A DNA stretch of 53,737 nucleotides from Lachnospiraceae bacterium. Lineage in GTDB: Bacteria; Bacillota; Clostridia; Lachnospirales; Lachnospiraceae. How positions within the stretch are numbered: the first letter of the stretch is position 1; the number at the start of each line of letters is the position of its first letter. The DNA lies in assembly GCA_017469935.1 (NCBI GenBank), contig JAFUFL010000036.1, positions 1 through 53,737 of the forward strand, read 5' to 3'. The notes below the pieces were generated by a model that was given only the letters and a program-made list of their open reading frames with translations, searched no databases and was not told the origin of the DNA. Made by a program: the position numbers and the translations under genes. Positions 6,912-35,137 of this stretch are shown here, piece after piece.

Positions 6912-7224
6912 GCTGTGACATGATAGCTGTGAAGCGTGAGGTTGCCGCTGTGGATACGGCGGGTTTTCCGTGGAGCGAATGTCTGGGGCGCCCTGATTGG
7001 CACAGGGCCGACCCGAAAACTGACGACAAGTCACTGTACCGATTGACAGTCTGCAATTCTGCGAGTAAAAGCAAGTTTTGCGAGCAGAAAATCAGAAACG
7101 ACGTGCGAGAACCTGATCTCGAGAGATTCTTTGAGAAGAGACAGACAGGACACGCACGGGAGTGTGTACAGTCACCGCTTGTCGTACTTCATTAAAAAGT
7201 GCGAATAAGGAGGCGACTTTTTTT
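6912..7224 (+). promoter_or_regulatory. Long 5' leader of the S10 operon
   Basis: About 313 nt without a gene between P2 and rpsJ. It contains stems such as GCCCTG/CAGGGC (6990-7008) and, at the 3' end, AAAAAGT (7194-7200) that can pair with ACTTTTTTT around the AAGGAGG Shine-Dalgarno of rpsJ. Ribosomal-protein operons of Bacillota commonly use such leaders for feedback control. Which protein would bind here cannot be said from sequence. Confidence 0.55.
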
Positions 7225-30320: not shown

Positions 30321-30419
30321 AGTGCAAATTACCCCGGAGGTGATTTGTCGGCGGGTGCAAATTACCCCAGAGGTGATTTGCCAAAAAGTGCAAATTACCC
30401 CAGAGGTAGTTTGTCGAAA
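30321..30419 (+). repeat. Three tandem 33-bp dyad repeats upstream of leuA
   Basis: Units at 30321, 30354 and 30387 share GTGCAAATTACCCC and then (G/A)GAGGT(GA/AG)TTTG. Each unit is itself an imperfect palindrome: CAAATTACC faces GGTGATTTG in units 1 and 2. The array lies after the apt terminator and ends about 30 bp before a TATAAT in the leuA leader, in the place expected for activator binding sites. It has no spacers, so it is not CRISPR. Confidence 0.85.
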
Positions 30420-30426
30420 TGTTAAA

Positions 30427-30455
30427 AAATATCATTAAAACCGAATAAATATAAT
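30427..30455 (+). promoter_or_regulatory. Candidate leuA promoter with poor -35
   Basis: TATAAT at 30450-30455 is perfect, but the hexamer 17 bp upstream (AAATAT) does not resemble TTGACA. A good -10 with a missing -35 is usual for activator-dependent promoters, and the dyad repeats end immediately upstream. Other start sites within the AT-rich 30420-30550 region cannot be excluded. I see no T-box. Confidence 0.4.
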
Positions 30456-30574
30456 CATTCTATTTGCGGCCCAACAGGAATAAAATCAAATCACGGTTTT
30501 TGATAATATTTAACTATTCATTTCAAGCCTATCCCACAAAAACCGATCTTAAATGATTGAGAGGTAATGCAACA

Positions 30575-32581
30575 ATGATGAACTACAAGAAGTACATGCG
30601 TCAGTATTTTCTTCCTCCGCAGCAGTGCATGGAGTGGGCAAAAAAGGATCATATCGAGAAGGCACCCATCTGGTGCAGCGTCGACCTGCGCGACGGCAAC
30701 CAGGCCCTGATCGAGCCCATGAGCCTTGAGGAGAAGATTGAGTTTTTCCAGATGCTGGTAAAGGTGGGCTTTAAGGAGATCGAAGTCGGTTTTCCCGCCG
30801 CCTCGGAGACGGAGTATGACTTCCTGCGTTCACTCATAGAAAGAAATATGATTCCGGACGATGTCACGATCCAGGTCCTGACACAGGCCAGAGAGCACAT
30901 CATCCGCAAGACTTTTGAAGCGGTAAAGGGCGCCCCCAAGGCGGTTGTTCATCTGTACAACTCCACCTCCGTGGCGCAGAGAGAGCAGGTATTCAAGAAG
31001 AATAAGGAAGAGATCAAAAAGCTCGCCGTGGACGGCGCAAAGCTCCTCAAAGAGCTGGCGGATGAGACCGACGGAAACTTCCTGTTTGAGTACAGCCCCG
31101 AGAGCTTCCACGGAACAGAGGTGGAGTATGCCCTGGAGGTGTGCAACGCCGTGCTGGACGTATGGCAGCCCAACCCCGAGTGGAAGGCCATCATCAACAT
31201 TCCGGCGACGGTGGAGACGGCGATGCCCCACATTTTCGCCTCCCAGATCGAGTACCTGAACAAGAATATGAAGTACAGGGACGGCGTAGTGCTCAGCCTC
31301 CATCCCCACAACGACCGCGGCTGCGGTATTGCGGACACAGAGCTCGGCATCCTTGCCGGCGCGGACCGCGTCGAGGGAACGCTGTTCGGAAACGGCGAGA
31401 GAACCGGAAACGTGGACATTGTCGCGGTGGCGATGAACCTGTTCGCGTACGGAATCGATCCGGAGCTGGATTTTTCCGATATGCCGAAGATCCGGGAGAC
31501 CTACGAGAGGCTGACGGGCATGTATGTCCATCCCAGACAACCTTATGCGGGCGACCTGGTATTCAGCGCTTTCTCCGGGTCCCATCAGGACGCCATCTCC
31601 AAGGGCATGGCATACAAAGAGCAGAACGATCCCAACAAGTGGACGGTCCCTTATCTTCCGATCGACCCGCAGGACGTCTCGAGAACGTACGATTCGGACG
31701 TCATCCGCATCAACAGCCAGTCCGGAAAGGGCGGCGTAGCGTATGTCCTGAGACAGAACTACGCGATCGTGCTCCCCGAGAAGATGAGAGAAGAGGTGGG
31801 CTACGCGGTCAAGCAGGTCTCCGACGAGACCCACAGCGAGCTGGCGCCCCAGGCTGTCTACGAGATCTTCACGGACCGCTATGTGGATTACACTCCGCAC
31901 TTTACGATCCCGGAGTGCCATTTCCGCCAGGCGGACGGCATCATGGCCGAGGCCACGATCGCCGCGGGCAACAACAGGACCGTCGTCGACGCCAACGGAA
32001 ACGGCCGTCTGGACGCCGTCAGCAATACGATCAAGCAGTATTACGGCATCAGCTACGAGCTCTCCTCCTATGAGGAGCACGCGCTCTCAAGAGGATCCTC
32101 CTCCAAGGCCATGGCCTATGTCAGCATTCTCTGCAACGGCAAAACATACTGGGGCGTAGGCATTCACGAGGATATCATCCACGCCTCCATCAACGCTTTG
32201 GTGGTTGCGGTAAACAAGCTTCCGCAGCTGCAGGACAACGCGCTGGAGAAGGACAACAGGCTGATCGCCATGCTCAATTATATCCAGGCCAACTATCAGA
32301 CCGTCACGCTCGAAGATATGGCAAAAGAGTTCCATCTCTCCACGCCCTATATCTCCAAGTACATCCGCGAGAAATCCGGCAAGACGTTCGGCGAGCAGGT
32401 AACGGCCGTCCGCATGAAGAGAGCCAAGACGCTCCTGCGAAACGGAAATATGACGATCGAGAACATTTCCTACTCCATCGGCTATCCCAACGCGGAGCAT
32501 TTCTCCAGAGTCTTTAAGAAGACCTTTGAGGTATCTCCGGCCCAGTACCGCAAGATCGCGACCAAGCAGGCGGTGTCCTGA
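30575..32581 (+). CDS. leuA: 2-isopropylmalate synthase fused to a C-terminal AraC-type DNA-binding domain
   Basis: First committed step of leucine synthesis: 2-ketoisovalerate + acetyl-CoA to 2-isopropylmalate. Residues 1 to about 430 are the catalytic barrel of the yeast/actinobacterial-type LeuA, with DLRDGNQ at 37-43 and the metal-binding HPHND (His243, His245). About 438-555 is the LeuA_dimer allosteric domain (FTIPECHF, GNGRLDAVSNTIKQYYG), where leucine binds in the family. About 562-662 is a full AraC/XylS double helix-turn-helix: TLEDMAKEFHLSTPYISKYI and TIENISYSIGYPNAEHFSRVFK, then SPAQYRK. The frame is uninterrupted, 668 residues. ATG 30575 follows GAGAGG. The fusion suggests an enzyme that senses leucine and binds DNA. 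Confidence 0.93.
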   Translation: MMNYKKYMRQYFLPPQQCMEWAKKDHIEKAPIWCSVDLRDGNQALIEPMSLEEKIEFFQMLVKVGFKEIEVGFPAASETEYDFLRSLIERNMIPDDVTIQVLTQAREHIIRKTFEAVKGAPKAVVHLYNSTSVAQREQVFKKNKEEIKKLAVDGAKLLKELADETDGNFLFEYSPESFHGTEVEYALEVCNAVLDVWQPNPEWKAIINIPATVETAMPHIFASQIEYLNKNMKYRDGVVLSLHPHNDRGCGIADTELGILAGADRVEGTLFGNGERTGNVDIVAVAMNLFAYGIDPELDFSDMPKIRETYERLTGMYVHPRQPYAGDLVFSAFSGSHQDAISKGMAYKEQNDPNKWTVPYLPIDPQDVSRTYDSDVIRINSQSGKGGVAYVLRQNYAIVLPEKMREEVGYAVKQVSDETHSELAPQAVYEIFTDRYVDYTPHFTIPECHFRQADGIMAEATIAAGNNRTVVDANGNGRLDAVSNTIKQYYGISYELSSYEEHALSRGSSSKAMAYVSILCNGKTYWGVGIHEDIIHASINALVVAVNKLPQLQDNALEKDNRLIAMLNYIQANYQTVTLEDMAKEFHLSTPYISKYIREKSGKTFGEQVTAVRMKRAKTLLRNGNMTIENISYSIGYPNAEHFSRVFKKTFEVSPAQYRKIATKQAVS

Positions 32582-32639: not shown

Positions 32640-32690
32640 AAAGGCCGCGGCGAGAGACTGATCATTCAGTCTTTCGCTGCGGCCTTTTTT
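32640..32690. terminator. Bidirectional terminator between leuA and the HAD gene
   Basis: AAAGGCCGC.. continues into a long stem with GAGACTGA / TCAGTCTT and closes GCGGCCTTTTTT. The genes on both sides converge here. Confidence 0.9.
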
Positions 32691-34929: not shown

Positions 34930-34949
34930 ATTTACTGAATCAATAAACT

Positions 34950-35053
34950 GCTGGGGGAGCAATTGCTGAGACAGCTGCCCGGTCCGTGAGAGCGGACCGG
35001 AGCAGCTGACCCTTATTACTTGAACCGGGTAATGCCGGCGTAAGGAAGCACAC
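34950..35053 (+). ncRNA. TPP (THI-box) riboswitch
   Basis: Conserved aptamer elements appear in order: CTGGGGGAGC, GCTGAGA, a variable stem (CCGGTCCG/CGGACCGG), GACCCTTATTACTTGAACCGG and GGTAATGCCGGCGTAAGGAAGC. It senses thiamine pyrophosphate and precedes the thiamine transporter gene thiT. Confidence 0.97.
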
Positions 35054-35137
35054 GGTTGATGAGTGAACAGGCAAGCCGGGAGAAGGCTCTGATTTCACGG
35101 CCTGCTTTGCTGCGCTCTGACGCTGTGAACCAACTCC

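Follow-up and report, generated by a model that had tools for sequence, protein, structure and literature searches.

The window, that is, the whole stretch of 53,737 nucleotides analysed here, contains a leuA gene whose single open frame encodes a 2-isopropylmalate synthase followed by an AraC-type double helix-turn-helix (HTH). The gene, its domains and the signals predicted around it are the following:

30421..30460, plus strand: predicted operator O1, an inverted repeat whose end falls at the -35 position (refitted matrix 31.8 bits, first matrix 39.4)
30480..30514, no strand assigned: predicted operator O2, a second inverted repeat overlapping the -10 and the presumed start of transcription (16.7 bits)
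30481..30486, plus strand: -10 hexamer TAAAAT, lying 60 bp from the O1 start, without the TG of an extended -10
30559-30564: plausible ribosome-binding site GAGAGG, read from the sequence
30575..32581, plus strand: leuA-araC fusion gene, 668 aa, open frame from ATG to TGA
30665..31498, plus strand: HMGL-like catalytic barrel, residues 31-308 (PF00682, 241 bits, cut-off 29)
31838..32221, plus strand: LeuA_dimer allosteric (leucine) domain, residues 422-549 (PF08502, 87 bits, cut-off 24.9)
32255..32554, plus strand: AraC double HTH, residues 561-660 (PF12833 plus modelled helices)
32643..32690, plus strand: terminator-like hairpin with a T run behind the fused leuA, read from sequence only

Pfam models recognized four domains in the single chain, in the order HMGL-like, IPMS_D2 (residues 327-392, 111 bits, cut-off 27), LeuA_dimer and HTH_18 (PF12833, residues 582-660, 73 bits, cut-off 33.6), each of them above its cut-off, and the best NCBIfam model, that of 2-isopropylmalate synthase (NF002991), matched residues 5-548 with 807 bits against a cut-off of 455. 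The AlphaFold2 model of the fused protein (mean pLDDT 85.5, pTM 0.70) has seven C-terminal helices (561-572, 579-586, 590-601, 605-623, 628-634, 640-651 and 655-667), which is the number expected for an AraC domain, and two HTH units are found within about 100 residues, as is typical of AraC/XylS DNA-binding domains. The best structural matches of this model are Mycobacterium tuberculosis LeuA structures, including the leucine-bound 3fig. The claim of the earlier note that one uninterrupted frame carries the synthase, the LeuA_dimer domain and a complete AraC double HTH was therefore correct in its coordinates and in its list of domains. The terminator-like hairpin suggests that the fused leuA is transcribed alone. 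Elsewhere in the window, an S10-Clostridia ribosomal protein leader (6921-7029) and a TPP riboswitch (34943-35063) score above their Rfam gathering scores.

All 101 HTH-bearing and all 37 HTH-less aligned rows preserve the active-site motifs DLRDGNQ, the HxH metal site (H243 and H245) and GNGERTGN without change, and from these motifs and the family model the protein of the window is predicted to be a complete 2-isopropylmalate synthase. In the regulatory domain, G475, N476, G477 and Y499 (531-533 and 554 in M. tuberculosis) are also invariant in the 101 HTH-bearing rows. Two positions that we take to belong to the leucine pocket of M. tuberculosis LeuA, A536 and A565, are D480 and S510 here, and they differ in fused and most unfused rows alike. 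With its conserved leucine-site region, the LeuA_dimer domain is predicted to bind leucine. The HTH segment (561-660) gave dN/dS values of 0.00-0.05 against eight close relatives (L308-L315), no higher than the 0.02-0.07 of the catalytic part in the same pairs, these being rough figures since dS is about 1 in most pairs, and the least constrained segment is the linker. Such values indicate strong selection on the HTH, so that one chain holds an enzyme and a DNA-binding domain that are both under selection.

A search for the LeuA plus HTH_18 architecture across Lachnospiraceae, as proposed in the earlier note, showed that in at least 89 of 397 family genomes, that of the window counted, one match runs through both parts of the protein (63-78% identity). 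Full-length fused matches were found in 16 of 61 genomes of the genus, again including that of the window, with 73-98% identity in the others; the nearest genus relative (G1100) carries the fusion at 98% identity. In a wider sample of the order, the 17 carriers among 295 genomes all belong to the same family, and in a phylum sample there are 4 among 398, one of them in another family. The best 80 loci of a scan of named genomes were mostly from Lachnospiraceae, with Lachnobacterium bovis, Roseburia porci, Coprococcus comes and Merdimonas faecis as carriers together with Butyrivibrio records, plus a gammaproteobacterium, Succinimonas amylolytica DSM 2873. The spacing from the regulatory domain to the HTH is nearly constant: in 85 of 89 fused proteins, the stretch between the positions that align with 549 and 575 counts exactly 26 residues. 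In any case, the fusion is not universal, as one genome of the same genus (G267) has only an HTH-less leuA with about 49% identity, and the HTH state requires seven changes on the tree, at least four of them on starred branches, so that gains and losses are indistinguishable.

This distribution bears on the trivial explanation that an assembly or frameshift artefact created the fusion. The genome of the window is indeed a fragmented assembly of 111 contigs, but no fewer than 88 other family genomes, several assembled as a single contig, show the same fusion, besides the almost identical copy of the nearest relative. Because one match spans both parts in so many genomes, a sequencing frameshift hiding a stop at the junction, which the earlier note named as a refutation, is excluded, the probability left to an artefact being negligible, and close relatives do carry the fusion. 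Three special loci deserve mention here: in two of them (L101 and L112) the HTH lies in a shifted frame directly behind leuA, possibly through sequencing error, a split gene or frameshifting, with the operator described below retained, and in a third one (L102) the end of the contig cuts leuA inside the HTH.

Expectation maximisation applied to the sequences upstream of 30 fused loci yielded one 40-bp motif, with the consensus ATTAAAATAAATCAATAAAAATGATTAAATTTAATCATTT and the form TTAAAn4ATCA-N7-TGATn4TTTAA followed by a conserved tail. Column symmetry favours an inverted repeat (dyad match 0.68), an arrangement that would suit a two-fold dimer, and the direct-repeat reading with half-sites in the style of AraC, whose best score was lower (0.54), was rejected. 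When the first matrix was scanned over up to 900 nt upstream of genes outside the training set, 56 of 59 held-out fused loci exceeded the 99% null, versus 5 of 41 loci chosen as unfused, and 44 of the 59 exceeded 20 bits, versus 3 of the 41. These three are precisely the special loci with HTH sequence. With a stricter cut at 4.8 bits, a score that none of 2000 shuffles surpassed, and without a locus that has only 47 nt upstream (L046), sites were present in 52 of 58 held-out fused loci versus 1 of 38 HTH-less leuA genes (L117, 7.8 bits). The HTH-bearing family loci as a whole, training set and special three included, have the operator in 83 of 91 cases, a figure that becomes 92 of 100 if nine hand-picked named rows are included. 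The eight family loci with enough upstream DNA and no site above 4.8 bits are L024, L025, L068, L085, L086, L092, L093 and L100, some of them with apparently changed spacing. Among the 80 named loci, 68 of the 72 complete fused ones with more than 150 nt upstream scored above the null maximum of the refitted matrix (1.6 bits) and 64 above 20 bits, although this count is not independent because several species repeat earlier ones. The four below 1.6 bits are L221, L234, L247 and L290, and a symmetric site of 17.2 bits is present in L234.

O1 is retained in all eight close relatives (L308-L315, 23-32 bits) while its flanks change; a ninth, L316, has too little upstream DNA. On the tree, operator and HTH change together in 3.8 of four well-supported independent contrasts on average and are never opposed, four contrasts being too few for significance as the p value of a sign test cannot fall below 0.125. 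On the other hand, three near-palindromes CAAATTACCCCRGAGGTRRTTTG, 33 bp apart and just upstream of O1 (window 30325-30413), were rejected as a conserved operator. This sequence has one further copy in the genome with two mismatches and only more degenerate copies in the 98% relative (L308), and it was absent within four mismatches from up to 500 nt upstream in L309-L316.

A site that accompanies the HTH could still belong to another transcription factor, the fused HTH being a passenger. Genomes encode many other AraC proteins, with at least 20 further HTH matches in that of the window, but strong selection on the HTH, the presence of the operator with the HTH and its absence without it, and the joint occurrence of site and gene in other lineages make this explanation highly improbable. 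Comparison thus points to a specific DNA target in the enzyme's own pathway, and the fused protein very likely binds the predicted operator. The proposal of the earlier note that the enzyme regulates its own gene gains strong comparative support from an inverted-repeat site in the leuA promoter that tracks the HTH across loci and lineages, and such self-regulation is very probable.

The range of targets was addressed with an operator model based on sequence alone, which was applied to 20 genomes with the fusion and 20 without the HTH. The best match was the leuA promoter in 20 of 20 fused genomes (E from 2.6e-10 to 5.7e-4), but many of these leuA sites had trained the model, so that the informative part is the scarcity of other strong sites together with the controls: in the 20 HTH-less genomes there was no match better than E 0.0064 and none at leuA among the matches listed. 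In the genome of the window, leuA itself is the sole match at E of 0.5 or less. One further strong separate site was found, beginning 144 bp upstream of leuB in G341 (28.3 bits), with a weaker one at the same place in a genome of the same genus (G017, 10.1 bits), and nothing above the 99% null was seen at leuB in the other 28 of 30 fused genomes examined. Two more matches were taken as chance, one in a long gap upstream of a gene that we assume to be PspA-like (G047, E 0.0036) and one among unrelated genes (G282, E 0.03). The regulation of other branched-chain genes, also suggested in the earlier note, is thus mostly not supported, with leuA alone in the window's genome and a leuB site in 2 of 30 genomes, both from one genus; leuC, leuD and the ilv genes were covered solely through the whole-genome scan of 20 genomes. 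This scarcity of sites beyond leuA and leuB indicates that the fused protein would be close to a single-target regulator.

Outside the family, the fused leuA of S. amylolytica DSM 2873 (L264) is 74% identical to the protein of the window, an apparent transfer between phyla. Its record shows a symmetric operator-like site just before the leuA start (17.8 bits at -48) and no separate O1 further upstream of the gene. A metagenome-assembled genome (MAG) named Succinivibrionaceae carries both O1 (27.8 bits) and O2 (27.5 bits), and G940, from a different family of the phylum, has O1 (48.5 bits) and a T-box, though names given to MAGs can reflect binning errors. The operator seems to move between lineages along with the gene.

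The position of O1 in the promoter is strikingly regular. In 63 of 70 loci the -10 hexamer begins exactly 60 bp from the operator start, and in 59 of 70 there is a perfect extended -10 (TGnTAnnAT), found in 3.6% of shuffles, whereas the -35 is poor, mostly with 2-4 of 6 matches, and its position coincides with the operator end. The fixed distance, the extended -10 and the poor -35 make up the geometry of a class II activator, and the fused protein likely activates from O1. In the window, O2 scores well above the 3.3 bits under which 99% of shuffles fall, and, counting this locus, a second inverted-repeat copy beats the 99% null in 33 of 70 loci, when 0.7 would be expected. It lies 57-75 bp downstream, most often 73-74 or 59, over the -10 or the presumed transcript start, and it scores above 5 bits in six of the eight close relatives (L308-L315).

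These second sites give some room to a repressor, in which leucine-bound dimers on O1 and O2 would block the promoter, an explanation that differs in sign only and overlaps the preferred one. O2 covers the -10 or the transcript start in almost half of the loci, and an extended -10 promoter can function without a -35, as these might. However, O2 was not found in 37 of the 70 loci, and the most conserved site is O1, whose fixed distance from the -10 and whose end at a poor -35 are those of an activator, so a repressor in place of an activator is on the unlikely side.

A last piece of evidence comes from the RNA leaders. An Rfam T-box was found in 31 of 38 HTH-less leuA loci (16 of 20, 15 of 17 and none in L002) but in only 7 of 40 fused loci (5 of 20 and 2 of 20), the 40 being drawn from the at least 89 known; these counts take loci singly, uncorrected for descent, and include T-boxes whatever amino acid they specify. 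The Rfam scan gave no T-box in the window or in the three loci with displaced or truncated HTHs (L101, L102 and L112), and one in L317. Loci tend to have either a T-box or the HTH system, an argument for assigning amino-acid control to the HTH system as well. The L002 locus corresponds to a second leuA in the genome of the window (1471-3174 of L002, minus strand, on contig C51), about 50% identical and without HTH, so that this genome has two isopropylmalate synthase genes with the HTH on one only. Upstream scans of L002 found neither operator nor T-box, and the gene adjoins others that presumably are cdaA-like and ybbR-like.

The near-exclusion also bears on a simpler possibility, a plain autoregulator in which the protein binds its own promoter ungated, keeping the amount of enzyme constant, while leucine acts on catalysis alone. 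In its favour, the sequence evidence all concerns DNA targeting and none of it gating, and the linker is the segment under least constraint. But the HTH stands directly behind the LeuA_dimer domain at a near-constant spacing, and a leader that is itself an amino-acid control is mostly missing where the HTH is present, which leaves an ungated protein rather improbable. Gating of DNA binding by leucine is likely, as it fits the order of the domains and the retained regulatory domain.

Altogether, the probable explanation, held with good though not full confidence, is a self-regulating leucine enzyme, in which a LeuA dimer with leucine-sensing LeuA_dimer domains would place its AraC domains on O1 in its own promoter. 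The 2-isopropylmalate synthase dimer would bind the inverted repeat through its C-terminal domains, and the bound dimer, judging from the geometry of operator and promoter, would help the RNA polymerase as a class II activator. From what is known of both families, leucine on the LeuA_dimer domain would inhibit catalysis and would also weaken DNA binding or shift it from O1 to O2, which covers the start site; leuA would then be made at low leucine and shut down at high leucine. A more ambitious version, for which the chances seem about even, is that one and the same leucine-binding event stops catalysis and moves the dimer from an activating O1 to a blocking O2, and that this unit has displaced the T-box across much of the Lachnospiraceae and moves from phylum to phylum with its operator.

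Feedback inhibition and feedback control of genes are normally two systems with two sensors, and here one leucine site may do both. The DNA target is predicted to the base, so the idea is testable at once. If true, it would illustrate the route from allosteric enzyme to transcription factor, would explain the control of leucine synthesis in common gut bacteria, and would offer a compact promoter module with a possible leucine response. Searches of the open-licence literature found no description of a LeuA-AraC fusion, in agreement with the remark of the earlier note that no leucine enzyme of this form had been described, although domain databases may list the architecture; they also found no paper on leuA, T-boxes and Lachnospiraceae together.

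Metabolic enzymes that also bind DNA and regulate genes of their own pathway are already known as trigger enzymes, among them PutA, BirA, NadR and PepA (PMC8249747). PutA targets essentially its own locus (PMC8249747), as the LeuA-AraC fusion is predicted to do. What would be new here is the DNA target of a fused leuA, the 40-bp operator, and the fusion differs from trigger enzymes in being a committed enzyme of amino-acid synthesis with an AraC-type domain directly behind the sensor of the end product. PutA belongs to catabolism, and the DNA-binding domains of BirA and NadR are of other types. The LeuA of M. tuberculosis (1sr9 and 3fig), the top match in both structure and sequence, has the same catalytic and LeuA_dimer domains; leucine is reported to bind its regulatory domain, with the signal passing through the linker (PMC10464499). 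The mycobacterial enzyme, however, ends after the LeuA_dimer domain, without a DNA-binding domain. In the AraC/XylS regulators, a C-terminal double HTH is gated by an N-terminal effector domain, and the site at araBAD overlaps the -35. Direct-repeat half-sites are found in AraC itself but are not universal in its family; compared with AraC, the fusion has a complete enzyme as effector domain and an inverted rather than a direct repeat as predicted operator. The T-box leader exerts amino-acid control on the same gene in HTH-less relatives, but it is an RNA that senses uncharged tRNA, unlike the protein-borne HTH of the fusion. Finally, Ada combines an AraC-type domain and an enzyme in one chain and regulates its own gene, but it is a DNA repair methyltransferase switched by methyl transfer, whereas the switch proposed for the LeuA-AraC fusion would be an allosteric end product.
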